NCBI GenBank assembly: GCA_021740915.1
Contig: JAIOYW010000005.1
Coordinates: 62,001 to 126,000, forward strand
Length of the DNA: 64,000 nucleotides
Direction: 5' to 3'
DNA from: Ignavibacteriales bacterium
GTDB taxonomy: Bacteria > Bacteroidota > Ignavibacteria > Ignavibacteriales > Melioribacteraceae
Under the pieces are notes generated by a model. The model was not told the DNA's origin. It ran no database searches and worked only from the letters and a program-made list of their open reading frames with translations. This document shows positions 36,262 through 61,500 of this stretch, in pieces (position 1 is the stretch's first letter; the number at the start of each line of letters is the position of its first letter). The position numbers and the translations under genes were made by a program.

Positions 36262-39200
36262 CTATTTTACTCTAGCAATTTTTATTGTCTCAACGACTGT
36301 TTCCTCCTCTCTTTTCATCACAATCTTGGCCAGATATACACCATTAGCAATAAAATCACCGTCCTGGTCACGTAAATCCCAATAAATTCTGTTGAAATCA
36401 TATTTTAGTTCAGAAGCTACGGGTTCAATTTCTCTTATTAGCCTTCCTGAAACTGAATAAATAAGGATTTTCAGTTCATCTGGCAACTGAGAAAGTCTGA
36501 ATGTAAAGAAAGTTTCTGTCTGAGCAGGATTAGGATAATTAAACAAGTCTATAAACTTAAGCTGATTGCTCACGGTGAAAATCTTTTTGTAACCATTCGA
36601 ATCAGCAAGATTACCACTCTGATCTGCCGCGAAAAGTGTCAGTTCATGGCGCCCATCAGAAAGTGATGGTGTGTATGTAATGCTCACTTTTGGATTCGAA
36701 GCACTATAATTGATTGTAAGATCATTATTCCCAGAATAATAAACCGGTTTATTATCGAGTCTTATTCTGATCGAATTTGTGTCAGTGATTGGGACTGATG
36801 AAGCATCAAAGAGATCAATCTGGATAGCCGGATGTGAACTAATATAATCGCCGTCAAAAACATCAGTACCATCAAAAGTTACCTTGAGAGTTGGTTTAGT
36901 GCTATCGCCAATAACATAAAATTTCTTTGAATATGAATTATTCTCCTTATACATCTCCTTAAGAGAATTCTCCGGATCAATTGTCACAGTAATCTTACGC
37001 TCACCCACTTCATAATTAGTATTAATATCAAGTTGCCGGTCAACTTTGCCTGCAGCATTAATTATTCCAATTATTTCATCAGACAAAACTTCCTTACTCG
37101 ACGCACTTCTTTCCATCTCAATTTTCACACGAACACTGTCTGCATTTGATGAACCAGAATTGAATACAGAATATTTGAATTCAAGCATTTCCCCTTGCTG
37201 CAAGGTATCCTGATTCACACTCACTCCTTCATAATTTGTACCTATCTCAGGCAAAGCGGAATAATTAATCCGTATAGAATTTATTTCAGGTGAAACTCCT
37301 TCGACTGATGCTTTAGCCTCAATAAGAAAGCGAAGTTCACTAAGACTGTCGCTATTTACAGAATTCAAATCTGCTGATGAATTTATGAGTGATAAAGCAT
37401 CCAGCGTATCAGTAAGTCCATTTTCATATTTCACCACGGGATAGATTCTTATACTGCTGCCGAGCGGCTGAATCAGGTCAGCGGACAGACTATTTGACTC
37501 AACAAAATAAGATAAAGGAAGACTGAGCATTTTGGCTGTCTCCTTAAATGCACTAAAATCATTTGCCAGAGTTATTGCCCCATTGTAAGGTCCCCTGACC
37601 TGTTCATCAAAGACTTGTGGAGTGGCACCAGTCATCGCAATAATAGCCCAGGACCCGCGAAACTGCAAAGAATCTATTTTTGTGCTACCGAGCCTGTTTT
37701 TCAAATTATCCCTTAAATTGGTGCTGAGGTTATTCCTGGCTTCATCTGCAACCCCAACCAATACTATTTTATTATCAGGGATTGATAATACAAAGTCTGC
37801 TAATTCCTGAACAGTAGTTGGATTTCCAAAAAGTTGGTACCAATTAACAGCATCAGCATTAAAAGTGACAGGATCAAAAACGCCGATTCCCATACCAGCA
37901 AAAAAAGAATTTGAGAGTAAATTGACTCCGTTTTTAGTAATAAGTGCATTAGCCCCTGCGTAATAACCTGCTGATAAAACTCCTAGCTCAATAGTGTCTC
38001 TTTTTATCTTTAAACTGTTTTCAGAATATTGGAAATTTTCAAGGATCTGATTACTGAATGCAAGTGAATCGCCCAGGAAAAAATCACCGCTGCCGCTATT
38101 AAAAAATGAAAACTTTTCTCCCCAGTCTGAGTCACCCTTAATTCTGTATCTAAGCCATGTTCTGGCTTTATCTGATGGTGAAAATAAAATCTTGGTAAAG
38201 AATGGCTCGGCTTTCTTTTCAAATTGCTGAAAATCCTGTGTGAAATTGAAATCAGATGCTCTCTGTACTTCATAAACAACAGAATCTGCTCTTTCATCGA
38301 ATGGATTTAAAACTCTGAAATTGTTTGCAGAAGCATTTTCAAATTCGTAAAGGGTTAAATTTTTTGATTTAGTTGAATTGACCAGAAGGGAGTTCTCATA
38401 ATAATTATTGTTTTCATTCAACTCTATAATTTCTGATCTGGCATCAACCGAAAATTGGAAATTATGAATACCTGAAGAATCCTTCACAGAGAAACTTAAA
38501 TTAATCGATTCGATATAATCCGGAATCTTTATTCTGCGAGAAAATGTCTGGATTTCACGTCCCTTAAAAAAATGAGATGTTTTCAGTTCCATACTGTCAT
38601 TTGAAGCCAATCCAATATTTCTAATTGTCCAAAGAAATTTGACGGAATCGGTCTGGTCATTTAATCTATCATTAATGAGTACGATATCTGCAGCATTGAT
38701 CTCCAGATCCGGTTTATCTGGTAAACGAATTTGTAAACTTGGATCGCCCATCAGCAGTGAAGTATAAGCAAAAATACGATTCGTTTGCGACAAACCATTC
38801 TGCTGAAATAACTTTATTTTACTTCCAAGATGTGCAGCTGCCGCAACTGTATTTCCTTCGAGTAAAAGGGATTCATAAAAATAGACAGGAGTGGAGGTTG
38901 AAGTTGAAAAGAAGCCAAGTGATGAATTACCAATATAGCCGAGCGCATTTCCATCCTCTTCCAATACAAATCTTTCTCCGAAAGCTGTGATATCCGGCTC
39001 TGCAAACTTATTCGTCGAACATCCAAAATCTGTCATCATTGCATGTTTGCCAGATTCACTTTTTAATTGTTTGGTATCGCTAATTGAATTATCCCATGTC
39101 GCTGTTCCCGAATGTCCTATATAGGAGACAATCAGACTGCCTTTTTTGATTGTTTCATTAAACTCCGCCGGTGTGTAAGGGCCAAAGTCTGAAACAGGTG

Positions 39201-41601
39201 TGGTTGTTTTGTAAAAATGAGTATAATTTCCTGCTATTGGCGCCGGTGCTATAATCTCATTGATAATCCTGTCGTTCACTGCCTTTAGTTGGGCTATTTC
39301 ACTGGGTGAATTGGCGGGACCACCGGAAAATAGGATATAATTTTTGTTCCATTCATCGAAGGGTTGTTCAAAATTATTAAGCAATTTTGCTTTATAAACT
39401 TCGAGTTCGGCGACCTCGTTAATTGGAATTCTTCCCGTCAGGAGTGATGGAAGATTCATACTGCCATCAGTCCAGACTGAGTACCAATTGTCAGATACCG
39501 GGTTTCCATATGACGGGACATAATTTCCCCCTCCGATTACACCATCGTTGAAGAATCTGTAACTTTTATAATCATTATTTGCATCACCGATCAAGCATAA
39601 GTATTCTGGCTTTAATGTTTGATTGTCGTAATATGCTTTCAGAAAATCCCTGATTGATTCAGGATATGGAAAGCCATAAGCGAATTCATCAAATATATCA
39701 TTAATATTTATGAGTACTGATGATAGTCCATATATGCCTTCAACCTCCTGAGTGTAAGTTTCTGCTGAAGTCATAAATTTTGGATGCGTTATACAGATAT
39801 AATCTGCTGAGTTAAGGTTGTTAATCAAGTCAAAAAACAAACCTTTTAGTTTTACTGAAGGCTTTAACATATTTGATTCCTTGAAAATTGCATATTTATA
39901 GCCTGTCCCAACGCTATCAGTGAAGTATAATTTATCATTCTGAATATTGAGATTTTCGATTTTCGAAAAAGTCGGGAGTATTCTATAAAGGGTGAAATCA
40001 GATCCGGTTACCCCATCGATCTTAATAACTCTCTCCTTCACAGGTAAATCCCTGACAATTTGAAATATCAGTTTATTATCAGCCAGATTTATTATCCGGT
40101 CGTAATCAATTTCGAACCAATCCGGCGACAATGTATTAACTGCCGGATTAAGAGCAGTATTATTTACCTGAAATTCATTAATTCCTTCTATAAGCTGTGA
40201 ATTTAAAACCTCACCGCTGAGAAGACATTGATCGAATCTGTTGATAACCTGGGAATCGATTGTTGTATTATTATATTTCAAGGTCAATGTGTGCGATCTC
40301 ATAGACTCAGAAGCACCTGCACTAATTACCTTATAATAAATATCTGCCTTTCCTCCGCTCTTTAATTGAGAGACAGGGAATTTATAATTGTAATATCTGT
40401 TACCATAGAACCACTTTGTCTGTGAAAATATCCATGTTTTATTCCTGACAAAATCCGGAGCCTGGTTTTCGGACTCAATATTACTTAATGGTTGATAAAG
40501 AGTATTTTCCTCATAATGATATTTGTGAGTATAGTAATCAAGAGTATCTGTAAGATTTGGAGTAATAACGCTATTAACTCCGATCCTGAGTCCCGGAATA
40601 CCATCCCAGGTAAGGAAATAATATGTTGAATCTGTATATCTGTTTAAAAACTCATTATATTGTTCCTCTGGTGCGTTGATTATTCTATGAGATATTTGCG
40701 GATAATTCCTCTCAGCATAAAACTCAAAATAATTGTCGGCTGAAAAACTATTTGCGTTATTATTTTTAAGATATATCGGGATTTCCTGCCCTCTTAAGTA
40801 AAGTTTAAGTGTAGCTGTGGAAATATTGGATGTATTTATACTTGCAGCTTCGAGATCTGAACCACTGACACGGTATATTCCATCAGAACCCACTGTCAGT
40901 TTTACATATTCTTTATTATTCTCATACCAACTTGTTATATTATTACTTGCTTTTCTCCCGGAACTAATATAATTACCTGCAATCGAAGCATTTATAAAAA
41001 GGCTGTTATAAATTCTGTCAAAATCGGTTCCGGTAATTATCGGTTTAGGTGTCGGAACGAAAGTATTTTCACCAAAATTCACATCGATCATAATTGATTC
41101 AGCCTGTCTTATTGAATTTGTTGACCGATCGTACCTCACGGGATTAATTATAACTTCGGCATAATAAAATTCACGATACTCGTAAAAACCACTAACCTTT
41201 CCAGGATAATCATCTGATTTTTTAATCAGATCTTGTTTGTTGATTTCGTTATAGCGGGCATCATCAATTATGTCAAAACGAGAAACCGGGATCATGTTCT
41301 CTGATACAGTTTCACTTTGTGCCTTCAATTTAATAACAGGTTTACTTCCGAAAGGCAAAGCAATAAAAACTGATTGAGATGGTAACTGAAATGGGCTGTC
41401 AGTGGAATCTCGTAAAGACTCATTATAAATTCTGAAATTAAACTTGCCTTTTTTAACATCCTGATAATTTAAATTGAGCCGCGGAATACTGAGCGAAAAA
41501 GAATTTTTTCCAACATTAATGGTTTGATTCTGACCAAACAATGATGTTGAGATAATAAAGGATGACAAAATTAAGGCACTTAGTAATCTGATCGGTTTCA
41601 T
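36262..41601 (-). CDS. porU: PorU-like gingipain-family (C25) cysteine peptidase with ILEI-like, CARDB and T9SS sorting domains
   Basis: 1779 residues with a signal peptide ending LFGQ (about 24). The N-terminal domain (about 25-250) contains INPVRYDRSTNSI, the PorU/gingipain propeptide style. The C25 catalytic domain is about 600-960, with His830 in YIGHSGTATW and Cys861 in MTDFGCSTN. Their 31-residue spacing is close to that of RgpB. Then come a CARDB-like domain (about 965-1085), an ILEI/PANDER-like module (about 1175-1335) with VLVGVADEARNNL and FRGSWAII, a second CARDB (about 1450-1570), an Ig-like domain and a T9SS C-terminal domain from YPNPAQTETF (about 1689). PorU cleaves sorting domains and attaches cargo to anionic LPS. 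It is 1 bp after the WecG-like gene. A gingipain-like protease role is the alternative. Confidence 0.83.
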   Translation of the reverse strand: MKPIRLLSALILSSFIISTSLFGQNQTINVGKNSFSLSIPRLNLNYQDVKKGKFNFRIYNESLRDSTDSPFQLPSQSVFIALPFGSKPVIKLKAQSETVSENMIPVSRFDIIDDARYNEINKQDLIKKSDDYPGKVSGFYEYREFYYAEVIINPVRYDRSTNSIRQAESIMIDVNFGENTFVPTPKPIITGTDFDRIYNSLFINASIAGNYISSGRKASNNITSWYENNKEYVKLTVGSDGIYRVSGSDLEAASINTSNISTATLKLYLRGQEIPIYLKNNNANSFSADNYFEFYAERNYPQISHRIINAPEEQYNEFLNRYTDSTYYFLTWDGIPGLRIGVNSVITPNLTDTLDYYTHKYHYEENTLYQPLSNIESENQAPDFVRNKTWIFSQTKWFYGNRYYNYKFPVSQLKSGGKADIYYKVISAGASESMRSHTLTLKYNNTTIDSQVINRFDQCLLSGEVLNSQLIEGINEFQVNNTALNPAVNTLSPDWFEIDYDRIINLADNKLIFQIVRDLPVKERVIKIDGVTGSDFTLYRILPTFSKIENLNIQNDKLYFTDSVGTGYKYAIFKESNMLKPSVKLKGLFFDLINNLNSADYICITHPKFMTSAETYTQEVEGIYGLSSVLININDIFDEFAYGFPYPESIRDFLKAYYDNQTLKPEYLCLIGDANNDYKSYRFFNDGVIGGGNYVPSYGNPVSDNWYSVWTDGSMNLPSLLTGRIPINEVAELEVYKAKLLNNFEQPFDEWNKNYILFSGGPANSPSEIAQLKAVNDRIINEIIAPAPIAGNYTHFYKTTTPVSDFGPYTPAEFNETIKKGSLIVSYIGHSGTATWDNSISDTKQLKSESGKHAMMTDFGCSTNKFAEPDITAFGERFVLEEDGNALGYIGNSSLGFFSTSTSTPVYFYESLLLEGNTVAAAAHLGSKIKLFQQNGLSQTNRIFAYTSLLMGDPSLQIRLPDKPDLEINAADIVLINDRLNDQTDSVKFLWTIRNIGLASNDSMELKTSHFFKGREIQTFSRRIKIPDYIESINLSFSVKDSSGIHNFQFSVDARSEIIELNENNNYYENSLLVNSTKSKNLTLYEFENASANNFRVLNPFDERADSVVYEVQRASDFNFTQDFQQFEKKAEPFFTKILFSPSDKARTWLRYRIKGDSDWGEKFSFFNSGSGDFFLGDSLAFSNQILENFQYSENSLKIKRDTIELGVLSAGYYAGANALITKNGVNLLSNSFFAGMGIGVFDPVTFNADAVNWYQLFGNPTTVQELADFVLSIPDNKIVLVGVADEARNNLSTNLRDNLKNRLGSTKIDSLQFRGSWAIIAMTGATPQVFDEQVRGPYNGAITLANDFSAFKETAKMLSLPLSYFVESNSLSADLIQPLGSSIRIYPVVKYENGLTDTLDALSLINSSADLNSVNSDSLSELRFLIEAKASVEGVSPEINSIRINYSALPEIGTNYEGVSVNQDTLQQGEMLEFKYSVFNSGSSNADSVRVKIEMERSASSKEVLSDEIIGIINAAGKVDRQLDINTNYEVGERKITVTIDPENSLKEMYKENNSYSKKFYVIGDSTKPTLKVTFDGTDVFDGDYISSHPAIQIDLFDASSVPITDTNSIRIRLDNKPVYYSGNNDLTINYSASNPKVSITYTPSLSDGRHELTLFAADQSGNLADSNGYKKIFTVSNQLKFIDLFNYPNPAQTETFFTFRLSQLPDELKILIYSVSGRLIREIEPVASELKYDFNRIYWDLRDQDGDFIANGVYLAKIVMKREEETVVETIKIARVK

Positions 41602-41602
41602 A

Positions 41603-42346
41603 TTATTTCCCGGATTTTCTTAACTGGTAATAATCATAAAAAAATATTAGCACAAATAAAGGATATCTAAAAATATATCGAGACAAAAGAGAGGGCTGAT
41701 GATATATTCGGAAAAGCCATCTGAGATGAAATTTATTAATTAAAGATGGGTAGAATTCAAGTTTTTCCGAGGATTGCTCAATGAACGCCCCGCACGTAAA
41801 AGTTGCACCTTTATAGTTGCTCATTAGCAATTCATTAATGTACTCTTCCTGTTTTCCGGAGCCCATTCCCACAATAACAATATCAGGTTTCATTTGAACT
41901 ATTTCCCGAATTGATAAATTCAGTTCTTCTTTATTATTAAAATAACCATTTCTAAAGCCTTTTAAAATAATATTTTGGTACTTAATTTTTATTGTCATGA
42001 TAAATTTTTCAATGGCTGATTCTGATGCACCGATAAAATAAACGGAGAGGCCATTTTTTGATGCAGATTCAAGCACTTGTTTCGCTAAGGAGCTAAAGTC
42101 AAAACTAAGCCTTTGCCTATTAACATTTAATAAAATGTTAAGTAGTTTGGTAACCAGAATACCATCGCTTAGAATGTAATCAAAAATATCCAATAAGTTT
42201 GTTTGACCCCTGAGAATCAAATATGAGTGTGGATTAACAAATGTTGTATTGTTACCCTTTGCTACTAGTATTTTAACAATTTCATCCTGTGAATATTCAG
42301 ACCTTTCTGAAATCTCTGATTTTTTAATTAAAGTATTTAAAATCAT
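41603..42346 (-). CDS. WecG/TagA/CpsF-family glycosyltransferase (GT26)
   Basis: 247 residues that transfer a sugar (ManNAc, ManNAcA or similar) from its nucleotide to a lipid-linked acceptor at the inner membrane. Typical blocks are TFVNPHSYLILRG, LSDGILVTKLLN (Asp61), RLSFDF (79-84) and IVGMGSGKQEEYI. The C-terminal basic-aromatic tail (FRYPLFVLIFFYDYYQ) is the family membrane-binding region. It overlaps the previous glycosyltransferase by 4 bp (ATGA) and precedes the PorU-like gene by 1 bp. This places it inside a glycan-assembly operon. Confidence 0.9.
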   Translation of the reverse strand: MILNTLIKKSEISERSEYSQDEIVKILVAKGNNTTFVNPHSYLILRGQTNLLDIFDYILSDGILVTKLLNILLNVNRQRLSFDFSSLAKQVLESASKNGLSVYFIGASESAIEKFIMTIKIKYQNIILKGFRNGYFNNKEELNLSIREIVQMKPDIVIVGMGSGKQEEYINELLMSNYKGATFTCGAFIEQSSEKLEFYPSLINKFHLRWLFRIYHQPSLLSRYIFRYPLFVLIFFYDYYQLRKSGK

Positions 42347-43416
42347 TGCTGCATTACTTTTCCGTAATATGCTTTATATTGTGGAAGAATACGAGTGCTT
42401 GAAAATTTATCTAAAATTCGCAGCCGCAAAGTTGATGTTAGTCGTATTACTAATTGAGAATCAAATCTAAGCATTTCAATTTTAGTAAAAAGTTCCTCAT
42501 TTGTTTCATATAGAAAACCACTAAGTCCATCTTCTATTATTTCGGGTATCCCGCCGGTTCTTCTTGCAATCACAGGTATCCCCATCATCCCGGCCTCCAG
42601 GAGTACAATACCAAAAGGTTCAATTTTTGACGGCAAAATAAACAGGTCAAATAATTCGTAGTATTGCCGAACCTGTGTCGTTTCCTTAATAAGCTCAATT
42701 GGCAGTTTATGTTCATCAATTCTTGTTTTAAGAATCCCGAAATCAACTCCATCACCAATAAGCAGGAACCTTATCGCCTGATTATTGGTTGCTGCATATT
42801 TGAGCCTGATTAGATCAATTAGTGTGTCTATGCCCTTTTCAGTAAAATCAATTCTGCCCACAAATCCGACTGTATAAATAGATTTTTTTGCATCAATAAC
42901 TTTGGGGGCATGAAACTCCTGGGGCGATACCATGTTGTATATGACACTGATCTTTGAATCTGGGATTCTGAAATAGCCGTTCAGGTGTTTTTTCACAAAT
43001 TCAGAACAAGCAATAATATTCCCTGACAAGTAACTAATTTTGCGATGCTTGTGAACAATGCTTTGAGCGCTGATTACAGTCTTAATATTGGTGAATTTCG
43101 AAATAATGAAAGATAAAATGCTAAAATGCCTGTGATATGAATGGAGAATATCAATTTTATTATTCCGCACAAAATTCCAAATTAGATATATGTCAGAAAG
43201 TATCTTGAGGATAAAAATTTTATGATTTAATAACTGACATATTTTATCATATTTAATGGAATTTTTAACATTCTCATCAAATTCATAACATGCAACAAAA
43301 TGCGAAAATCCGGAATCCAGACCATTTGTGATTAGTTGTATTGTCCTGGTGATGCCGCAGGAAGGTTTTAGATTATGATAAAGATGCAAAATTCTAATTC
43401 CCTTATCAGATTTCAA
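42343..43416 (-). CDS. Glycosyltransferase family 4 protein
   Basis: 357 residues, GT-B fold, retaining. The N-terminal Rossmann domain starts IRILHLYHNLKPSCGITRT (donor-site glycine loop), and the C-terminal domain has VGFVGRIDFTEKGID and the EPFGIVLLEAG motif (E-x7-E), where nucleotide-sugar is bound. It lies second-last of the transferases in the operon and overlaps its neighbours by 4 and 11 bp. Linkage and sugar are unknown; a role in building a surface polysaccharide is inferred from context. Confidence 0.92.
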   Translation of the reverse strand: MKSDKGIRILHLYHNLKPSCGITRTIQLITNGLDSGFSHFVACYEFDENVKNSIKYDKICQLLNHKIFILKILSDIYLIWNFVRNNKIDILHSYHRHFSILSFIISKFTNIKTVISAQSIVHKHRKISYLSGNIIACSEFVKKHLNGYFRIPDSKISVIYNMVSPQEFHAPKVIDAKKSIYTVGFVGRIDFTEKGIDTLIDLIRLKYAATNNQAIRFLLIGDGVDFGILKTRIDEHKLPIELIKETTQVRQYYELFDLFILPSKIEPFGIVLLEAGMMGIPVIARRTGGIPEIIEDGLSGFLYETNEELFTKIEMLRFDSQLVIRLTSTLRLRILDKFSSTRILPQYKAYYGKVMQQ

Positions 43417-44533
43417 ACAGACTCCTGAATTTATTCTGGATTATTTCCTTCGAAAAATCATTTCTGATCTTCCGACTTACATTCTTCGACATTTGAAGGA
43501 GTTCATCGGTCATATCATTATCAAATATTTTCAGAATACCATTCACAAATTCATTCTTATTCGAAGCAATAATAACGTCTTTTCCCGGTTTGAAATTATA
43601 ACCGAGCGCAGCCAATGAAGTTAGTATCATCGGGATTCCAATAGCAGCAGCCTCCATCACTTTAATTCTTTGTCCACTCCCTGAAAAAATAGGTGCAATA
43701 AATATGGAGCACTCTGAGTAGTATTTTTTAATATCTGGCACATTTTCCATAACCATTATATTCTTTGCACGAATTTTACCAATTTTATTTGTGTTACGTC
43801 CGACGATTAGCAGCCTGATCGATGAATCGTTTTTTTGCAGTTCAGGCATAATTTTATACAATAAGAACTCCACGGCTTCAAGATTTGGAAAATGATCAAA
43901 ATTCCCAACAAAAAGCAAAGTTTTTTTGATGATATTTCCAGGGAGCCATGAATAGTTGAATTCCCCGATATCGTGGGAATATGGAATCGTAATTATCTTG
44001 CGGTTGAATTTTTTCAGGAGTAAGTCTCTCTCCTCCCCGGTTATCGTTATCGTGATATCTGCCTTTTCAATGCTCTTTGCTTCGTAAACTTGCAATCTGA
44101 AATTTTTAATCCTTTCAATTATTTTTCTTCTAAGATTAAACTTTTCAATATATATCACACTCTCATCGTCAAAAAAAACGATCTTTGAATTATAATGAAG
44201 TTTAAGAAAATAATGCATCATAACTACATGTTCGACGTAAATAAAATCAGGCTTGAACTGATCAATTATCGCAATTAATCGCTTCTGAAATTTCTTGGAT
44301 GAAGTATCGGTGATCCTTGGCGGAATGCCGAAAAATAGGTTTATGATTTTTTTTAGTTTATTTACACTTTTCCGGACAATCTCAAAATTTTCAAATCGGC
44401 CACTGGTTTTTCCAAAACAAATACCGCGCACTTCAAAACCATCGAGGGCTTGCAGAAAAAAATGCTGCCCAAATGAACACATCTCTCCTTTCGGTGAAGG
44501 GTACCGATAGTTAACGAAGAGTATTTTTTTCAT
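43406..44533 (-). CDS. Glycosyltransferase family 4-like protein
   Basis: 375 residues. The N-terminus KKILFVNYRYPSPKGE is the GT-B first strand. Family features of the C-terminal half are LLFVGNFDHFPNLEAVEFL, MENVPDIKKYYSECSIFIAP and SGSGQRIKVMEAAA. The last is the SGxGxRIKxxEAMA variant, seen in EpsH1/PEP-CTERM-type sugar transferases, where the first Glu of the usual pair is absent. It overlaps its neighbours by 11 and 23 bp, which indicates tight translational coupling in the operon. Confidence 0.9.
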   Translation of the reverse strand: MKKILFVNYRYPSPKGEMCSFGQHFFLQALDGFEVRGICFGKTSGRFENFEIVRKSVNKLKKIINLFFGIPPRITDTSSKKFQKRLIAIIDQFKPDFIYVEHVVMMHYFLKLHYNSKIVFFDDESVIYIEKFNLRRKIIERIKNFRLQVYEAKSIEKADITITITGEERDLLLKKFNRKIITIPYSHDIGEFNYSWLPGNIIKKTLLFVGNFDHFPNLEAVEFLLYKIMPELQKNDSSIRLLIVGRNTNKIGKIRAKNIMVMENVPDIKKYYSECSIFIAPIFSGSGQRIKVMEAAAIGIPMILTSLAALGYNFKPGKDVIIASNKNEFVNGILKIFDNDMTDELLQMSKNVSRKIRNDFSKEIIQNKFRSLFEI

Positions 44534-45593
44534 GTAAAATTTTATCGTAAAGTTTTATTGTTTTATTAACCATTCCCTGGAAATTAAAAATTTCTGTAAA
44601 ATCATTAAATGTTCTAACCCTGATTTGTTCATAATCCGGAAAATCCTGAATAGCCCGTGCAAGATTTAATGTCAGATCTCCTGAAATATTCTTATCATAA
44701 AGAAGACAATTAACCCCATTTTGTAATACATGATCGGAGCCACGGAAATTTGAAGATATAATAAGATTGCTTTGCAACCCGGCTTCGATCAAACTTAAAG
44801 GAAATCCTTCATAATCTGCAACTGAAGGGAAAACAAATATTGAATTATTTCTCAACCGCTCCTGTAAATCAGCTATCGGGCCTAAAAATTTTACTGGTGA
44901 GGAAACCTTTTTCGCCAGATTATGCAAATATGGCTCCTCAGTTCCTTCGCCACCAATAAAAAACTCACATTTTTCTAATAAAGAAGTTTCTAATTCTGAG
45001 ACAGATATAATAAATTTATCAACACCTTTTTCGGGAACAAAGCGTGAAGCACATAAAACGCCTAATTTTTTTGATTTAAATGAATTATTCGTGGGTAAAA
45101 CCGGGATGCCGTAGGGTATTTCAAATATCCGTCCCGGATTAAATAATTTATTATTTTTCAAATATTCAGTCACATGCTTATTAACGGTAATCACATAATC
45201 AGAATTGAAATGATTCAGACGCCCCTGAATCGGTAGAATTCCATGGTTTGTTAATATTGTTGGAGTACCCGTCAGCCTCCTTGCATGCTTTGCTATCGAT
45301 GAAGCATAATGATGATGCGAATGGATCAAATCGATTTTGTATTTCTTCGAAATATCTGCAATTTTATAAATACCTTTCAGATATCGTACATAACTTCTTC
45401 TTTCATGAACTAATTCCGGAAGCACGATTGTTTTGATCCCAAGATTGTTAAACTTGGCAAAATTCTGGTTCGCTCCACAGGCCAAAATCACTTCAACATT
45501 TTCGATATTTTTTAACCCGGATATCAGATTAAAAACATGACTGCTGACGCCACACACTTTTAAGATTTGGTTTATCAGGATCAAGACCCTCAC
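44511..45593 (-). CDS. Glycosyltransferase family 4 protein
   Basis: 360 residues with the GT4 plan: VLILINQILKVCGVSSHV at the N-terminus, LIHSHHHYASSIAKH, TNHGI, ASRFVPEKGVDKFI and EGFPLSLIEAG (E-x7-E). It is soluble or peripheral, acting at the cytosolic face of the inner membrane. The start lies 3 bp from the stop of the preceding gene. It belongs to the Wzx-to-PorU operon and probably adds one sugar of the repeat unit. Confidence 0.92.
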   Translation of the reverse strand: MRVLILINQILKVCGVSSHVFNLISGLKNIENVEVILACGANQNFAKFNNLGIKTIVLPELVHERRSYVRYLKGIYKIADISKKYKIDLIHSHHHYASSIAKHARRLTGTPTILTNHGILPIQGRLNHFNSDYVITVNKHVTEYLKNNKLFNPGRIFEIPYGIPVLPTNNSFKSKKLGVLCASRFVPEKGVDKFIISVSELETSLLEKCEFFIGGEGTEEPYLHNLAKKVSSPVKFLGPIADLQERLRNNSIFVFPSVADYEGFPLSLIEAGLQSNLIISSNFRGSDHVLQNGVNCLLYDKNISGDLTLNLARAIQDFPDYEQIRVRTFNDFTEIFNFQGMVNKTIKLYDKILHEKNTLR

Positions 45594-45596
45594 GTA

Positions 45597-46697
45597 TCAG
45601 TTTCCCCTCTCATAAATCAAGGCAATTTTTTCAAAATGTCCCTCGAGTGAAAATTTATGTGCAAATTCAAGATTCTTCTGAATATAAAAATCCATTTTTT
45701 CTTCACTGAATTCACTAATCTCATTTAACAAGTCCAAAACATTCTCAATGTTCTTAGGATCAACAATAAATTTTTTCATATCCTCATCAAAATATTCCGA
45801 GACTCCGCAATTCTCTGATGTAACGGCAATCAAACCATTCGCCATTGCCTCAAGAGTGGACATACCAAAATTTTCATATTCAGACAGAGATAAAAAAACA
45901 TCAGATTCCTGTAGATTTTGAAGAAATATATCTCGCGGAATGCGTTCTAATATCCGAACCCGTTTTTCTGAAAAGTTTATAAAAATTGATCTTGCGAAAT
46001 TCGTGTTATTCCCCATGCAATACAGATCAAAAGAGAATTGAGCTCCGGATTTTTCAATCACTTTTGATAAATATTCTATCCCCTTCTCAGGCCTGTCAGC
46101 TCCGTCAAAAACTACTTTTATCTGCTTACGCGCTTTATTTTTAATCTTCGGCTTCAGTGCCTTTTCAATCCCGTGAGGAATGACTACCTTGTCTTTAATT
46201 ATTTTGAAATTTGATTCAAAATAATGTTTAGACCACTCAGAATGAAAAATCAATAAATTCGACTTTTTCAAAATGATTTTCTCAGCAAAAATTGTTTTTG
46301 TTTCTCTGAACCCAATCGATTTCCGAAACTTAACAATTTCTGACTTTGCGAAGCCGTGAACAGAATATATTATCTGCATGCTCCGAAAATATGAAAAGAT
46401 TAATATGGGCAAACTGAAATTTGCAAGATTAATAATGTGGATTATGTGAGCCTTATTTTCATAAAAAATGATTTTTAGCATGGGAAATATACCAGCAGTC
46501 ACCCTATTATTTGTTTCCTTGCTAAAACCAAAAAGTTTTTTGAATAAGTTGAATTTTCGACCATCCCAGAAATAATTAATAAAAAGCATATCTTGCCTTT
46601 CACTAAAGTAATCTCTCATTCTGCCGGCATATTGAACAGGTGCATCATCAATCGGAGACTCTGGAAATTTTCCTAAAATTATTATTACTTTCTTAAT
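45597..46697 (-). CDS. Glycosyltransferase family 4 protein with apparent AUU start
   Basis: The protein runs at least from the ATG at 46619 (340 residues). The in-frame sequence upstream is open to a stop at 46731-46733 and encodes KKVIIILGKFPESPIDDAPV followed by QYAGRMRDYF. That is the usual first beta-strand and loop of GT4 enzymes, so the real N-terminus is about 26 residues longer. No ATG, GTG, TTG or CTG exists in the interval. ATT at 46697-46695 is preceded by AGGGA eight nt upstream and would give an AUU start overlapping the flippase stop. The C-terminal half has VFDGADRPEKGIEYL and the SEYENFGMSTLEAM (E-x7-E) motif. Confidence 0.83.
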   Translation of the reverse strand: MKKVIIILGKFPESPIDDAPVQYAGRMRDYFSERQDMLFINYFWDGRKFNLFKKLFGFSKETNNRVTAGIFPMLKIIFYENKAHIIHIINLANFSLPILIFSYFRSMQIIYSVHGFAKSEIVKFRKSIGFRETKTIFAEKIILKKSNLLIFHSEWSKHYFESNFKIIKDKVVIPHGIEKALKPKIKNKARKQIKVVFDGADRPEKGIEYLSKVIEKSGAQFSFDLYCMGNNTNFARSIFINFSEKRVRILERIPRDIFLQNLQESDVFLSLSEYENFGMSTLEAMANGLIAVTSENCGVSEYFDEDMKKFIVDPKNIENVLDLLNEISEFSEEKMDFYIQKNLEFAHKFSLEGHFEKIALIYERGN

Positions 46698-47902
46698 ATG
46701 TGGTATCCCTGGACAGTTAAAATTGTAATTTCAGTTAAGAGTGTTGCGTAAGCAGCCGCAATGATGCCGTATTTCGTTAGAAAACTAAAATTAAAGATCA
46801 GATTTACACTCAATCCCAAAACTGAAGATGTCAAAACTTTCTCATATTTACCTGAAGCATTTAAATATATACCGGTTATTGAATTCATTGCGAGAAATAC
46901 AAACGCAAAACTTAATATCTTTATTATTTCCTCAACAGATGAAATTTTTGCTCCAATATAATAATCTGCTAACGGAGCCACGATAAATCCGATAAGCATT
47001 GCCAGAAGCAATCCGATAATAAATATAATAACAAAATATTTTTGAAGTAAATGTACTTTCCCCGACTGTTGTCTGGCTGCAATCTTATTAAAAAAGATTA
47101 CAAAAAGCGGACTTAAAAGAACTACCGGCAATTTGTATATCAGATAACTAAAAGCATAGGAAGCGATCATTTGCACCGGAATGAACATAGGTAAAATTAA
47201 AATATCGACGCGGTCATAAAGAATATTTATTATCTGGTTCAAACCCAAAGGGAAAGATTGTTTAATTAACGCATACGATTCTTTACCAAAAGCTATTCTA
47301 TTTGCCATTTCCGGGTAAACTTTTTCACCAGTAATAATAATTTTAATTTGCAAAAGGTTTGCAAAAATCATGGCTGCTGCGATATACTCAATTTCTGATA
47401 AATAAAGTATTATGACTAATATAAGGGTTATTAAAAAAATGCGTGAAATAAAACTCGCTTTAAAGATCAGTTTAAAATTCTGTTTCCCGAAGAGAAAGTG
47501 ATTATAAAAATTTATCAATGAACCAATCGATGAAGACACAGTGATGATTAAAATAAGTGTGATATTATCAAGACCACTGATGATAAGGTAAATTACTGCT
47601 GAAGCTATCTGCAACAGAATGAAACTGAATCTTAATGATATGGCATCAGAGAATTCATTCAGTATTTTTTTACCCGATGCAAGTCTTTGAAGATGAATAG
47701 GTATTCCGAGATCAAGTATTGTTCCGGCAATAAAATTAAAACCAAGGAATATCGAAAAACTCGCATAATCGATGGGAGAGAAGTATTTAACAATTAGAAG
47801 GTGAAAAACGAGTGAGAATAATTTTTCAGAGAATAAATTAAAGGCAAAATATCTGCTAGCAGAATAAATAGTCTTCAACTCAGTGAGTAAGGTCGATATC
47901 AT
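46685..47902 (-). CDS. Wzx-type polysaccharide flippase (MATE/PST superfamily)
   Basis: From the ATG at 47902 it has 405 residues (a TTG at 47932 would add ten). About 12 hydrophobic segments, with charged loops in the arrangement of oligosaccharide flippases (MOP superfamily). The first helices are FSLVFHLLIVKYFSP and FSIFLGFNFIAGTIL, and GIPIHLQRLASGKK follows helix 2. It would move undecaprenyl-linked repeat units across the inner membrane. It is first in the minus-strand operon of glycosyltransferases and the PorU-like gene; its stop overlaps the AUU-start transferase. Confidence 0.85.
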   Translation of the reverse strand: MISTLLTELKTIYSASRYFAFNLFSEKLFSLVFHLLIVKYFSPIDYASFSIFLGFNFIAGTILDLGIPIHLQRLASGKKILNEFSDAISLRFSFILLQIASAVIYLIISGLDNITLILIITVSSSIGSLINFYNHFLFGKQNFKLIFKASFISRIFLITLILVIILYLSEIEYIAAAMIFANLLQIKIIITGEKVYPEMANRIAFGKESYALIKQSFPLGLNQIINILYDRVDILILPMFIPVQMIASYAFSYLIYKLPVVLLSPLFVIFFNKIAARQQSGKVHLLQKYFVIIFIIGLLLAMLIGFIVAPLADYYIGAKISSVEEIIKILSFAFVFLAMNSITGIYLNASGKYEKVLTSSVLGLSVNLIFNFSFLTKYGIIAAAYATLLTEITILTVQGYHILRK

Positions 47903-47969
47903 TTTTTTCACGAAAGAGTATGACGTCCGCAATCAGGTTAATTTAATTATTATCTTTTGCATAATATCT

Positions 47970-48407
47970 TTACACCCTCTTCTTGATCTTTTCCCAAAGA
48001 CCTTTTCCGATCATTTTATCAGCGTTGACTAAAATGTTTTTAACAATGTAGAGAATATCGCCTTCCCCTGCCCAGTTTCTGATAATTATCTGATTATCAA
48101 TATTATTAATAAGATCATTAAGGACGTAAGCCGCAAATGCAAGATCATCCAGATAGCCAACCGGACCGGTTATAATTTCCGGAATAATGTCCATAGGTGA
48201 AATAAAATAGAGGATAGCCAAGCCAAGTTTTATCTTCTTATCCTTCGGCACTTCCGGATCTGTTACTAATTTTGCGATCAGATGAAATAGATCAGGAAGA
48301 AGCAGAATATATTCAAGCCATTTTTTGTTTTCACCAATCTGCGCCTCTGCCCAGATTTTAATTTCTTTCCTTAATTTTAAGTAAAAATCCTCGTGCTGCT
48401 TATTCAT
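47970..48407 (-). CDS. DUF1232 (YkvA-type) membrane-associated protein
   Basis: 145 residues. The central core LGLAILYFISPMDIIPE, followed by a GYLDDLAFAAYVL segment, is the DUF1232 signature (YFxSPxDxIPD...GxLDD). It has one or two hydrophobic helices, so it is probably inner-membrane associated. The function of the family is not established. It is divergent from the HD-domain gene, with a near-palindrome in between, and is separated from the flippase by 67 bp. Confidence 0.87.
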   Translation of the reverse strand: MNKQHEDFYLKLRKEIKIWAEAQIGENKKWLEYILLLPDLFHLIAKLVTDPEVPKDKKIKLGLAILYFISPMDIIPEIITGPVGYLDDLAFAAYVLNDLINNIDNQIIIRNWAGEGDILYIVKNILVNADKMIGKGLWEKIKKRV

Positions 48408-48524: not shown

Positions 48525-49745
48525 ATGGGAATCAAACATCCGGTTTTACTTCGGCTTCGGGAAGAAACCAACTATAGATTTGCTGCCGAATTCCTTGAAT
48601 CACTCCTTCGCAAAGAGATTCCCGCCGAATCTATTATATCGAAACTATATGGCGCACACAGAATCAGACTTGTTAATGAGATGATAGAGAACTTCCTTAT
48701 TAAAAATACTTTCGCCGGGAAGCATCCCCGGAAATCATTGGACCCTGTCACAGAAATTCAGCAGAGACGGATTGAACTGGAGAAAAATCTTGATTATCAG
48801 AATCTTCAGACAAAACTGCTGCTTGGCAAACTACCGGAACTTTCCGATTTCAAACCTATTTATGGCGGCTATTCATCTGAAGTCCGCCGCGTTTTTGAAT
48901 TATTCAATATAAATAACCTGAAACGTAAATGCGGCGTGCCTGCAGTCGCCCACTTAAATCGGGTCGCATCACTTATCTGGGCAATCCATATGGATACGGA
49001 TGACAATTTTCATTACATCGCAACCGCAGCTTTTCATGATTCGATAGAAGATTTGTTAAATGTGATCAAAGATGACACCGGAATGAAATTCTCAATAGAT
49101 CGACTTGATGATTTCCAGACTTTTCTTGTTCCGGAAGAATTGAGGCGATCTGTATTGATGCTCACAAATATTTACGATCTTATCCTTACCCGGATTGCAA
49201 CAGAATTAAGGAATGAAGATAAAGCATTCAGACAGGAAAATATTCTTCTGAAAATAGATGAACTGATGAGTTCAACAAATCGCCCATCCATCCCGGTTTA
49301 TATGAAAATTATGCGCGATACATTATTAAACACCGTTATTGAGGAGGATATTCTGCAGGAAGCAAAGTGGGTCTGTTATAAAAATCTTTACATCAATCAA
49401 TTGGCGGATTACACAAAAGAAATTAAAGACTTCAGGTTGTATCAGATTAAAGCTGTGGATCTCTCTGACAATGCCCACGGCAGAGAGGCTTTGTCACTCG
49501 AAGGAAGAATTAAGAATATAATTAAACTTGGGATATGGGCTGATGCAGGATTTAATATGCATTCAACCTGGGCGCCGCTTAATAATTATATTATGGAGGT
49601 TCATTCAGAAGCGCTCACTCACAGCAGGTATCTCGTTATCAAAGATCTTCTCGAGCCGCATTCATCTCTTGATTTTTTGTATTCATCATTAATGAAAATA
49701 AAACAGCTCGAGAGTATCTTTTTTGTCGAAAATCCTTATAACTGA
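48525..49745 (+). CDS. HD-domain phosphohydrolase resembling the RelA/SpoT hydrolase domain
   Basis: 406 residues. His143 in VPAVAHLNRVASLIW, His171-Asp172 with Glu175-Asp176 in AAFHDSIEDLL, and Asp312 or Asp315 in IKAVDLSDNAHGR copy the order of the metal and catalytic residues of SpoT/MESH1-type ppGpp hydrolases (H...HD-x2-ED...D). Spacing is looser than in SpoT, with an insert between HD and the last Asp. No synthetase, TGS or ACT domain is visible. A helical region (1-135) has no recognised family. It may hydrolyse (p)ppGpp or another nucleotide, though residue order alone does not prove it. GGAGGG nine nt before the ATG gives strong translation. Confidence 0.68.
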   Translation: MGIKHPVLLRLREETNYRFAAEFLESLLRKEIPAESIISKLYGAHRIRLVNEMIENFLIKNTFAGKHPRKSLDPVTEIQQRRIELEKNLDYQNLQTKLLLGKLPELSDFKPIYGGYSSEVRRVFELFNINNLKRKCGVPAVAHLNRVASLIWAIHMDTDDNFHYIATAAFHDSIEDLLNVIKDDTGMKFSIDRLDDFQTFLVPEELRRSVLMLTNIYDLILTRIATELRNEDKAFRQENILLKIDELMSSTNRPSIPVYMKIMRDTLLNTVIEEDILQEAKWVCYKNLYINQLADYTKEIKDFRLYQIKAVDLSDNAHGREALSLEGRIKNIIKLGIWADAGFNMHSTWAPLNNYIMEVHSEALTHSRYLVIKDLLEPHSSLDFLYSSLMKIKQLESIFFVENPYN

Positions 49746-56428: not shown

Positions 56429-58261
56429 TTATTCGACAGTTACACTTTTTGCGAGATTTCTCGGCTGATCAACATTAAGACCCCGTTTTACAGCTATATG
56501 GTATGCAAGCATTTGCAGAGGAATAACGCTCAGAATTGGCATAAGCATTCTGATTGTATCCGGGATTTTAATAGAATATTCAACGAGTGAATCAATTTTG
56601 TTATCGTTCTCGCTGGCGATAGCAATAATCCGCCCTTTCCGGGCGCGTACTTCTTCAATATTACTTATTACTTTGTCATATACTGAATCTTTGGGTGCAA
56701 TGAACACGGCCGGCATATTTTCATCTATTAAGGCGATTGGACCGTGTTTCATTTCTGCTGCAGGATATCCTTCTGCATGGATATAAGAAATTTCTTTTAG
56801 CTTAAGTGCCCCCTCAAGAGCAACCGGGAAATTATATCCTCTTCCCAGATAAAGGAAATTTTTTGCATCTTTGAATTTCTCAGCAATCTTTTCGATTTCA
56901 GAATTGAGGGAAAGTATCTTCTTAATTTTTTCCGGTAATGATTGGATCTCGCGTATAATATTCTGCCCATCGACAAGACTTAAGCTCTTATGTCTTCCTA
57001 CCATAAGTGTAATCAGTGCAAGAACAATAAGTTGTGCAGTAAAAGCTTTTGTCGAGGCAACACCTATTTCCGGTCCTGCATGAATATAAACGCCTGCCTG
57101 ACTTTCTCTGGCAATTGAACTTCCAACAACGTTACATACACCCAGAACTAAAGCGCCTTTCCTTTTTGCTTCACGCATGGCAGCAAGAGTATCCGCTGTT
57201 TCTCCGCTTTGAGAAATAAAAATCAGAGTATCAGTCTTTTTGATGATTGGATTGCGGTACCTGAATTCGCTTGCATAATCAACTTCTACCGGCACTTCAC
57301 AGAATTGCTCAAGCATATATTCACCCACAAGTGCAGCATGCCATGAAGTTCCGCAGGCAGAAATAATTATTCTTTCGCTATCTGCGATTTTTTGTTCAAA
57401 ACCTTTAAGACCGCCTAATTTAGATATGCCATCTTCAAAGAGAAGCCTGCCGCGCATCGCGTTAAAAACAGATTCCGGCTGTTCCATTATCTCCTTAAGC
57501 ATAAAATGCTCAAAACCGCCTTTATCAACTTCATCGGCAGCCATTTCAAGCTCTACCACTTCCTTAACTGCTTCAATGTCCTTGATTGTTCTCGCATTAA
57601 ATCTGTCGCGGTAAATTTCAGCTATTTCATCATCTTCAAGATAGACAACCTGGCTTGTGTAGGCAACAATCGCATTAACATCCGAAGCGATAAAATTTTC
57701 TTCATCCCCTATTCCAATAACCAGCGGTGATCCCTTACGGGCAACGATAATTTTATCAGGCTCTTTGGAATAAATTACGGCTACCCCGTAAGTTCCCTCG
57801 AGGCTGTTTAATGCATATCTTACCGACTGGAAAAAGTTGTGTCCCTTTTTGAGAAAACTATCTATCAGGTGAACAATCACCTCAGAATCGGTTTCGCTCT
57901 TAAAGGTCACTCCCCTTTTCTGTAGTGTCTTTTTTAGTGTGGAGTAGTTCTCAATGATACCGTTATGAATTAGCGTCAGTGTCCCATCTTCGTTAGAGTG
58001 AGGGTGGGCATTGATTTCATTAGGTTCACCGTGTGTTGCCCAGCGTGTATGACCTATACCAACTGTTCCGTTTAGTTTATGTTCAATAACCTTCTTTTCA
58101 AGTATTGAAACCTTTCCTTTGCTCTTAATAATAGAGCATCTATCTGAATCAAGTACGCTGATTCCTGCGCTGTCATAACCTCTGTATTCGAGTCTTTTCA
58201 GACCAGATATTAAAATGGGGACACTATTTTTGTCTCCAATATACCCAACAATTCCACACAT
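56429..58261 (-). CDS. glmS: Glutamine-fructose-6-phosphate aminotransferase
   Basis: Makes glucosamine 6-phosphate, the entry to UDP-GlcNAc, so it feeds peptidoglycan and surface glycan. The 610 residues have the N-terminal glutamine amidohydrolase domain starting MCGIVGYIG (Cys2 nucleophile after Met removal) with RWATHGEPN and the HPHSNEDG loop. Two SIS sugar isomerase domains follow (about 285-600, with CGTSWHAAL and SQSGETADTL), and the C-terminal KSVTVE tail closes the sugar site. Its 3' end is 12 bp from the cDPG-synthase-like start, so it may share a transcript. No glmS ribozyme pattern is seen upstream. Confidence 0.97.
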   Translation of the reverse strand: MCGIVGYIGDKNSVPILISGLKRLEYRGYDSAGISVLDSDRCSIIKSKGKVSILEKKVIEHKLNGTVGIGHTRWATHGEPNEINAHPHSNEDGTLTLIHNGIIENYSTLKKTLQKRGVTFKSETDSEVIVHLIDSFLKKGHNFFQSVRYALNSLEGTYGVAVIYSKEPDKIIVARKGSPLVIGIGDEENFIASDVNAIVAYTSQVVYLEDDEIAEIYRDRFNARTIKDIEAVKEVVELEMAADEVDKGGFEHFMLKEIMEQPESVFNAMRGRLLFEDGISKLGGLKGFEQKIADSERIIISACGTSWHAALVGEYMLEQFCEVPVEVDYASEFRYRNPIIKKTDTLIFISQSGETADTLAAMREAKRKGALVLGVCNVVGSSIARESQAGVYIHAGPEIGVASTKAFTAQLIVLALITLMVGRHKSLSLVDGQNIIREIQSLPEKIKKILSLNSEIEKIAEKFKDAKNFLYLGRGYNFPVALEGALKLKEISYIHAEGYPAAEMKHGPIALIDENMPAVFIAPKDSVYDKVISNIEEVRARKGRIIAIASENDNKIDSLVEYSIKIPDTIRMLMPILSVIPLQMLAYHIAVKRGLNVDQPRNLAKSVTVE

Positions 58262-58522: not shown

Positions 58523-61500
58523 CTACTTCACCTTTGCCAGTTTTTTCAATTCGGAGTAATGCTTATCCTTATAACTTGTATTCACTTTATAAAAATAAAC
58601 TCCGTTGGAAACCTCATCTCCATCCTGATCTCTTCCATCCCAGAAGATTTTGTTAAGATACTTGATGGCAAGCTCGGAAACCGGAACATCAATATCCCTT
58701 ATCAGTCTGCCGGCGATAGTATATACTTTAATATTCATTTCATCGGGCACCGTAGAACCAGTCAGAGTGAATGTAAAATAAGTATGATCGCTGAACGGAT
58801 TGGGATAATTATATATGTCCTTAACTTTATTTTCAGTATCAACAATAAAATTAACCCTGTACTCGGTTGAATCGAAGAAATTATCGGATGCATCTTTTGC
58901 AAAAACGGTCAGATCATAGATACCGCTCTCAAGTTCAGGTTTCCAGAGCAACGTTGCTTTGGAATTTGGATACGGTGTGTAATCGTAAATTATAGAATCT
59001 GCAGCAAAACTAATCTTTTTATTGTTAAGGTGAATAAAAAAGTCGGCTGTATCAAGCGCAAGCGGGCTGTTATCCGATAAAGAGATAAATATTTCAGGAT
59101 TGGGTCGGATAAGTTCTCCATTAATCGGTTCTTTGCCATCAATTGTAATATTAAAAACAGGATCAAGAGAATCCTTGGCGACATAGAAATTGTTATCTGC
59201 CAGATTATTAAAATTATAGAATTCAGGTAATTTAAGCGAAGCTATCGTCCTGACACTGTTTTTGAATAGGAGCCCATCCGTTGTTATTGTGTCTCTTGAA
59301 ATAACACTGCCCGAAGCAGGAATACTTAAATACTTTGAAAACACAACTGAATCAGAATTATTCAGGTAATATTCGAGTTTTACAGAATCTGCGATTGCAT
59401 AACCGATATTCGATACACTAAGGCTCATTTCAATTGGGAATCCCTGCATTATCGAATCGGGAGCGAACGAAAAATCCTCATCCCTAAGAATTATCTCAGG
59501 CAGAGATTCATAACTAACTTTTAATTTGGAAAGACTTGCCGGGTCACTGATTCCCGATGTAGAATCACCGAACGTAAAAAAAGCTCTTATGTACTGGTAA
59601 TCTGAAGTCCTGATAGAAGAGATATCTGTCGAAGATCCGACATCCTCAAAAAGATTTTCCCATTTCCTGTTTTGATTATCGTATCCCTGTACGTCAGTTT
59701 TTGCGTATCCGTTGTATCCCTGAGTGTTGATAACATATTCGAGATTTCCCCAGTTTGCGGCTGGTCCAATTCTTCCTGTGTATATGTAACCGCTGGATTG
59801 CTTATAATAGCCGGTGAATTTGTGAATCGCCGGAATGTAGCCATCAAGGGCGACAGAGGCATAGACAGCATCATTTTCAATATCATAACACCAGGCGTGG
59901 TATCCCTGGATCCCATTACCAGTGAACCACTGATCCTCATAAGCTCCGTTATTAAGATCAATTCTTCGCATTTTTCCTTCAGAATAATACTCGAACGGGA
60001 AGAAATAATGCCCTGCCACGAAAAATGCACTGAACTCATTACCCCAGCTAATGCTTTCAGTAATCAGGTCTGTCCTGGGTCTGTTCCAACCATTTTGTGG
60101 ATCAAAGGTCCTGATCACATAGTGGTCAAGTCCATTACTATCCTGAAAAGCCAGATTATAAACGTATCTGCCGTCTGTAGCAAGGTAAGAAGTCCCCCTC
60201 TTAACTTTGCCAGTGCCATTGTCCAAAATTCCGTCCGGCACAAATACATCTGAGGTCGAACCTGTTACCGGATTAATAGATTTTAGGAGAAACGGGTCAC
60301 CGGTGGAAACATAAATCCTGCTGTTTAGATAGAAAATCGAGTGTTTAATGAGGGCGCTGAAATTAGGGATAGTGTCGTAAACCTGCCCGTAAACATTACC
60401 ATTTCCGGTGCCGATTTTAAATATCGGGGATGGCTTTTCACCATTAAAAAAGGATTTGTTAGCGACATATAAATACGTGCCATCCGTTGTCATTGACGTC
60501 ATCTTAAAATTGGGACGGATAAGTGTAGTCACGGTATCAATAAGCCTTTCAGCCATTGGTTTCGGCGGTTTAATCTTTGTATCAAGAATAAGAGCTTTTG
60601 CCGAATCGCTATAAAAAAAATTATTCTTTGTAAACAGATCAAGCTGTGTGCCCTCTGCAAAATATCCAAAACCTGAAGTATTCGTAATTGTAAAAGAGCG
60701 GGTATCAGTCCAGTCACTGTATTTTTCACCATCTTTCAATCTTGTACGCCAGAAATAAACCCCCGGACTCAATGCCGATATTCTCCAGGAAACAAGCCCT
60801 TTATCAGCGATGATCGCATCTGTTGAAAAAATAACTGTAGCAAAATCCGCTTTGGAACTGACCTCAAAAAAGTATTCGAGATTCAGTCCGGCATAATAAC
60901 CAATATCAGCAAGCAGAAAATCGATGCTCCTTAAATTCGTAAAAAATCCATCGTTAGGTCTGATCACATTCGGTTCACTTAAATCAAAAACAGACATCTC
61001 AAATGAAGCTGAATTGTCTGAGGTATCCATTTCAGGAATCGGATTATCTTTATTTACCTCAACAGCAATATTAATAATCCCGTCAATACCAGGTTTCCAG
61101 AAAAAGCCTATTGAATCGATAGAAACAAAACTTGAAAGCCTTTTGCTGGCGATCATAAATGAGGTGTCACTTGTTGATGCAGTAAACTTAACGATTGCAG
61201 TATCTCCGGGAAAGATCCTGCCAAGGTTTCGGATCTTTGCCTGAACATAAACAGAATCGCCTAATAGAATATTTTCCGGAGTGATGCTGATCTCCTGGCG
61301 GCTGATACTGAAATCAGGTTTATCCGGTAATGCTAAAGTTAATCCAGGATCACCAAGGTATGAAAACAGAGCAATATTATCATTTTTGATCTTTGTCGGC
61401 AATCCGCCAAGGAAATTAATTTTTGAGGCAATCAAAGCATCGCCCATTACATAATTCCCTTCATCAAATAATTGTTTGAACAGGCTTTTATTTGCATCCA

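Follow-up and report, generated by a model that had tools for sequence, protein, structure and literature searches.

The C25-family protein encoded at the end of a surface-glycan operon in this Ignavibacteriales bacterium, here called C25a, is by sequence a member of the PorU2-like branch and a paralogue of PorU. It is genuinely linked to glycan genes, and has been for a long time; the coupling is well supported across related genomes. As the best explanation, we see C25a as a sortase or lectin-protease at the cell surface, attaching part of the T9SS cargo to the glycan of its operon, which is, in our judgment, an even call. The features of the window, by which we mean the whole stretch of 64,000 nucleotides that was analyzed, are listed in Table 1.

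Table 1. Position of the C25a operon, its flank and the second C25 locus in the window.
Feature	Position	Strand	Remarks
p445, predicted outer-membrane beta-barrel, 445 aa	33536..34873	-	no named family
C25a (PorU2-like C25 protease, 1779 aa)	36262..41601	-	PF01364 9e-52
FAM3/POMGnT1-stem-like (ILEI) domain, about residues 1200-1339 of C25a	37584..38004	-	profile and model
WecG/TagA/CpsF glycosyltransferase	41603..42346	-	1 bp upstream of C25a
GT4 glycosyltransferase	42343..43416	-	family match
GT4 glycosyltransferase	43406..44533	-	family match
GT4 glycosyltransferase	44511..45593	-	family match
GT4 glycosyltransferase	45597..46619	-	family match
Wzx-type polysaccharide flippase	46685..47932	-	PF01943, 35.2 bits (cut-off 28.2)
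DUF1232 protein	47970..48407	-	37 bp before Wzx
GlmS (glucosamine-fructose-6-phosphate aminotransferase)	56429..58261	-	directly downstream of C25b throughout the order
C25b, second C25 paralogue, 1911 aa	58523..64000, continues past window end	-	terminal gene of another glycan cluster

The gene order given in the initial annotation, with a Wzx-type flippase, four GT4 transferases and WecG leading into the C25 gene, was confirmed on the minus strand, and the stop of WecG lies 1 bp before the start of C25a. From Wzx to C25a the successive intergenic gaps are +65, +3, -23, -11, -4 and +1 bp. Sequence scans found no terminator-like sites near the WecG-C25a junction, and promoter-like sites were no more frequent than in shuffled sequence. 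The DUF1232 gene is possibly the first gene of the operon. WecG scored above the cut-offs of both PF03808 (5e-32, 111 bits, cut-off 27.4) and TIGR00696 (71.2 bits, cut-off 69), placing it in the WecG/TagA/CpsF superfamily. A 406-aa gene that is divergent from the operon (window 48525-49745) had no Pfam or NCBIfam match.

C25a combines a signal-peptide-like N terminus, as judged from its sequence, with a C25 domain (residues 601-957), an ILEI domain (residues 1236-1325), CARDB repeats and a C-terminal sorting-type domain. Its membership of peptidase family C25 follows from the PF01364 match and an intact His/Cys dyad, His830 and Cys861, which lie in GHSG and DFGCST motifs, are invariant in 13 aligned sequences and are also kept in the wider set. 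The description of this gene as a C25 giant was accurate, whereas the T9SS sorting domain ascribed to it falls just short of formal recognition, since residues 1689-1763 scored 21.5 bits with TIGR04183 (T9SS type A sorting domain, cut-off 23). The best family match was the PorU2 model NF052324 at 394 bits (393.7), below the cut-off of 450, and the PorU model NF033707 gave 261 bits, below the cut-off of 420. Hence, C25a formally reaches neither cut-off; its similarity to these families takes in the C25 domain and the greater part of the N-terminal half. A tree of 85 C25 proteins, built with a quick method and SH-aLRT support only, grouped C25a with Bacteroidia-type PorU2 in a well-supported division that excluded canonical PorU and C25b. 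To our knowledge, no PorU2-like protein is known to act as a sortase.

The genome (4.35 Mb, 35 contigs) contains four C25 genes. One of these, on contig C10, encodes a protein of 1317 aa that scored 940 bits with NF033707 (cut-off 420) and is the true PorU of the genome; the next genes encode PorV (265 bits, cut-off 250) and a T9SS-dependent M6-like protein. Matches of PorU length (about 1300-1340 aa) accompany C25a throughout the same-family genomes. The initial annotation described C25a as a PorU-like sortase, and the C25 domain, sorting-type domain and glycan operon would suit PorU itself. With a separate PorU-PorV locus on contig C10, and 940 bits there against 261 for C25a, this identification is effectively refuted, provided that the PorU on C10 is active, and we rule it out with very little doubt. 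The fourth C25 protein is divergent (L064 2-4546, G000:C20), with weak PorU and PorU2 scores and no glycan genes recognized nearby.

The linkage between C25a and WecG was followed in two sets of relatives. Among 57 same-family genomes, in which C25a was counted as present when there was a substantial match, both genes occurred in 33, C25a only in 4, WecG only in 4 and neither in 16 (Fisher p 2.7e-7, uncorrected for shared ancestry); all 4 genomes with C25a only have fragmented contigs. The two genes were neighbors in 33 of the 33 genomes that have both, with zero to two genes between them. Because the 4.35 Mb genome has one copy of WecG and the adjacency is kept in every one of these relatives, chance is ruled out as its cause. 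The second set comprised 47 named loci, nearly all labeled Ignavibacteria or unclassified Bacteroidetes, which were fetched independently with at least 3.5 kb upstream. WecG lay within 3.5 kb of C25a in 41 of these and within 300 bp in 37, and was on the opposite strand in 7 of the 41 linked loci. The named loci partly overlap the 57 genomes, and the two counts are not mutually independent. Within the class, the link was found in several families (tree groups f1-f5, f10 and f16); it was not seen in other classes at PorU2 proteins with high scores, and some of these have a PorV-like gene adjacent instead. Conserved synteny across Ignavibacteria, as envisaged in the initial annotation, thus holds strongly for the C25 gene with WecG, while Wzx is not a constant near neighbor in the relatives. 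In the cultured relative Stygiobacter electus 09-Me (L084), the reading frames of WecG and C25a overlap. Some relatives carry tandem C25a pairs behind a single WecG operon (L221 6804-17688, L222 5500-16376).

The constant surroundings of C25a in relatives are WecG plus variable transferases. The 108 proteins upstream of C25a in 22 loci included 32 GT4, 24 GT2, 21 WecG, 10 GT9 and 7 UDP-galactopyranose mutase proteins. In contrast, among 67 control proteins upstream of canonical PorU and Bacteroidia-type PorU2, the only transferases in the 25 commonest families were 2 GT9. It is conceivable that C25a and WecG have no joint function and simply mark a conserved border of an O-antigen or EPS locus that is otherwise variable, and the right flank, consisting of p445 followed by HAD and metallophosphatase genes, does recur in 30 of the 60 loci whose downstream sequence was long enough. 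However, the WecG-C25a pair is kept where this flank is absent (e.g. L084, L085, L093, L101, L108 and L144) and where WecG is on the opposite strand, which favors a functional tie over a passive border and disfavors pure inherited synteny. The joint presence or absence of the two genes in the 57 genomes, together with a second C25 paralogue that stands independently at another glycan locus, also speaks against a passive border, which we regard as improbable. The position of p445 beside C25a is probably that of a shared flank. The protein is predicted to be an outer-membrane barrel; homology to PorV or Wzi was considered and dropped, given a weak match to a Leptospira membrane-protein model and structural matches to porin-like barrels at low TM-scores.

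The ILEI (FAM3/POMGnT1-stem-type) domain of C25a was detected with PF15711 at 58.3 bits (cut-off 27), and its profile matches were FAM3C (5e-22), POMGnT1 (5e-16) and cell-surface hyaluronidase (3e-13). Residues 960-1480, modeled with 45 sequences, gave a pLDDT of 89, and the best structural matches of the modeled region included the POMGnT1 stem (5ggj and 5ggl, TM-score about 0.78 by target) and FAM3B/C. The PF15711 score and the TM-score of 0.78 to 5ggj assign the domain to the FAM3/ILEI fold, which on the strength of this model we predict to be of carbohydrate-binding type. The POMGnT1 stem structures 5ggj and 5ggl were solved in complexes, and GlcNAc is among the sugars that FAM3C and the POMGnT1 stem bind (PMC9802357). 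When the three sugar contacts of the POMGnT1 stem given in that work were mapped by inference through a FAM3 alignment, two appeared to be largely kept, as Asp1286 (32/45) and Arg1315 (35/45), and the third was unconserved. The domain is strong in WecG-linked C25a and weak or missing in other PorU2-like proteins; canonical PorU and C25b lack it. Some Bacteroidia PorU2 members show weak ILEI similarity without a glycan operon.

A fold of this type could instead serve a gingipain-like surface protease that is tethered to glycan and is not a sortase. Its lectin-type domain would dock on the capsule or EPS that the operon produces, and the enzyme would there trim or mature proteins of the cell surface or break down food proteins. 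Gingipains belong to the C25 family, the ILEI domain would provide the docking and the glycan locus is conserved. The nearest families of C25a, however, are PorU2 and PorU rather than gingipains, and a linkage so strict would fit an enzyme and its acceptor better than a general protease. We consider a tethered protease unlikely, though deserving of attention.

C25b (window 58523-64000 and L065 8523-19432) ends a different glycan cluster from C25a, and the two C25 paralogues thus correspond to two separate glycan loci. Its cluster, all of it past the window end, holds an O-antigen-ligase-type Wzy_C, a MurJ-type flippase, GT4 and GT9; in relatives, it also includes WbaP-type initiators together with UDP-GlcNAc 4,6-dehydratase-like and DegT aminotransferase genes.

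In the C25a locus itself, no initiating transferase, polymerase or ligase was recognized. The genome has no WecA; its sole PF00953 protein is MraY, located between MurF and MurD, which rules out WecA as the initiating enzyme, and initiation must therefore come from PF02397 enzymes elsewhere, for which the genome gave six matches, all outside the C25a locus. The VimA/pepcterm_femAB-type model TIGR03019 produced one weak match (43.9 bits, cut-off 260), and judged from this single gene the known Wbp/Vim linker pathway is not evident. No EpsH/XrtA exosortase was found among the operon and adjacent proteins scanned. The T9SS is represented in the genome by SprA (1015 bits), the PorV family and at least 150 type A sorting domains. 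About 16 PorV-family genes scored over the cut-off beside this very large cargo set, and the many PorV paralogues could be cargo-specific shuttles.

The operon glycan might also decorate cargo internally, by O- or N-glycosylation for secretion or stability, with C25a checking or processing the glycosylated cargo. Passages in earlier work describe glycosylation of T9SS cargo at non-anchor sites in Bacteroidota (PMC10202324; PMC8729774, PMC11858162). No oligosaccharyltransferase was recognized among the window operon genes or the commonest neighbor families, which argues against internal decoration, and we hold it to be quite improbable.

For the anchoring of cargo by C25a, the chemistry of PorU offers a precedent: PorU cleaves the sorting domain and transfers the new C terminus to the amine of a glycan linker (PMC4560394, PMC7468200). 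In our model, the locus would build a surface glycan that varies between lineages but keeps a unit made by WecG. Judging from the gene families, the transferases and WecG would assemble an undecaprenyl-linked oligosaccharide that Wzx would flip. C25a, given its signal peptide and C-terminal domain, would be exported via Sec and the T9SS; its ILEI domain may then bind the glycan, with the WecG-made unit as the part that C25a would recognize. By analogy with PorU, the His/Cys dyad would cleave the T9SS sorting domain and pass the acyl-enzyme to a glycan amine, so that a subset of cargo would be anchored. We infer both the transpeptidation and the identity of the anchor, and the putative anchor function is plausible.

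This anchoring model is favored by the linkage in 33/33 genomes and 41/47 loci despite strand flips and different flanks, by the preponderance of transferases upstream of C25a, unlike in the control set, and by the intact dyad, the carbohydrate-binding-type domain and the second paralogue at a glycan locus; a T9SS with this many sorting domains and the PorU precedent add to it. Against it count the dearth of PorU2-like proteins known to act as sortases, the scores below both family cut-offs, the Bacteroidia PorU2 proteins that lack a glycan operon though some keep weak ILEI similarity, the unconserved third sugar contact, the lack of a recognized initiator, polymerase or ligase in the locus, and the weak linker-gene match. 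The earlier proposal of an anchor glycan encoded with its own enzyme is partly supported, by the WecG synteny and the carbohydrate-binding-type domain, with the amendment that the enzyme is a PorU2-like paralogue and not PorU.

C25b with its Wzy/MurJ/GT cluster and GlmS would form a second, parallel enzyme-glycan pair, and the same cell would have canonical PorU-PorV as a third route. More tentatively, we propose that Ignavibacteria may run more than one sortase-glycan pair in parallel, with a WecG-type glycan for C25a and a Wzy-type glycan (in relatives with WbaP-type initiators and amino-sugar genes) for C25b, each pair joining its own T9SS cargo to a dedicated polysaccharide beside PorU-PorV, in the case of C25a via the fused lectin domain. 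The choice of glycan acceptor by PorU-type sortases, and the routing of T9SS cargo to different anchors, are open questions in the field. With a sortase paralogue beside its presumed acceptor-glycan genes, the acceptor can be tested directly; a pair of paralogues whose glycan loci differ would be a demonstration of sortase-acceptor specificity, and a FAM3/POMGnT1-stem-like lectin fold fused to a C25 protease provides a concrete biochemical handle. Our data suggest that in Ignavibacteria an enzyme that anchors proteins is matched with a surface sugar dedicated to it.

C25a shares with PorU (NF033707) the C25 fold, the His/Cys dyad, the signal peptide and the C-terminal sorting-type domain, and presumably also surface location and use of a glycan acceptor; it differs in being about 450 aa longer, in carrying the ILEI domain and in lying at a glycan operon rather than beside PorV. 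With PorU2 (NF052324) it shares the major tree division and, for some Bacteroidia members, a weak ILEI similarity, whereas Bacteroidia PorU2 loci have no transferase cluster and in some cases a PorV-like neighbor. PorZ delivers A-LPS to PorU (PMC8545088), and the idea of a glycan-binding module that feeds a sortase is common to both systems, although the putative module of C25a forms one polypeptide with the protease and its fold is FAM3/POMGnT1-stem-like. The open-access literature searched contained no account of a C25 sortase whose gene accompanies a glycan operon, nor of one that bears a lectin fold. A parallel in genetic organization is the PEP-CTERM/exosortase system, in which a transpeptidase for C-terminal signals is likewise coupled to a polysaccharide locus (PMC1569441), but the exosortase is an inner-membrane enzyme unrelated to C25, and both signal and export route differ. 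Exosortase-polysaccharide coupling and the use of A-LPS by PorU in the T9SS were known already.
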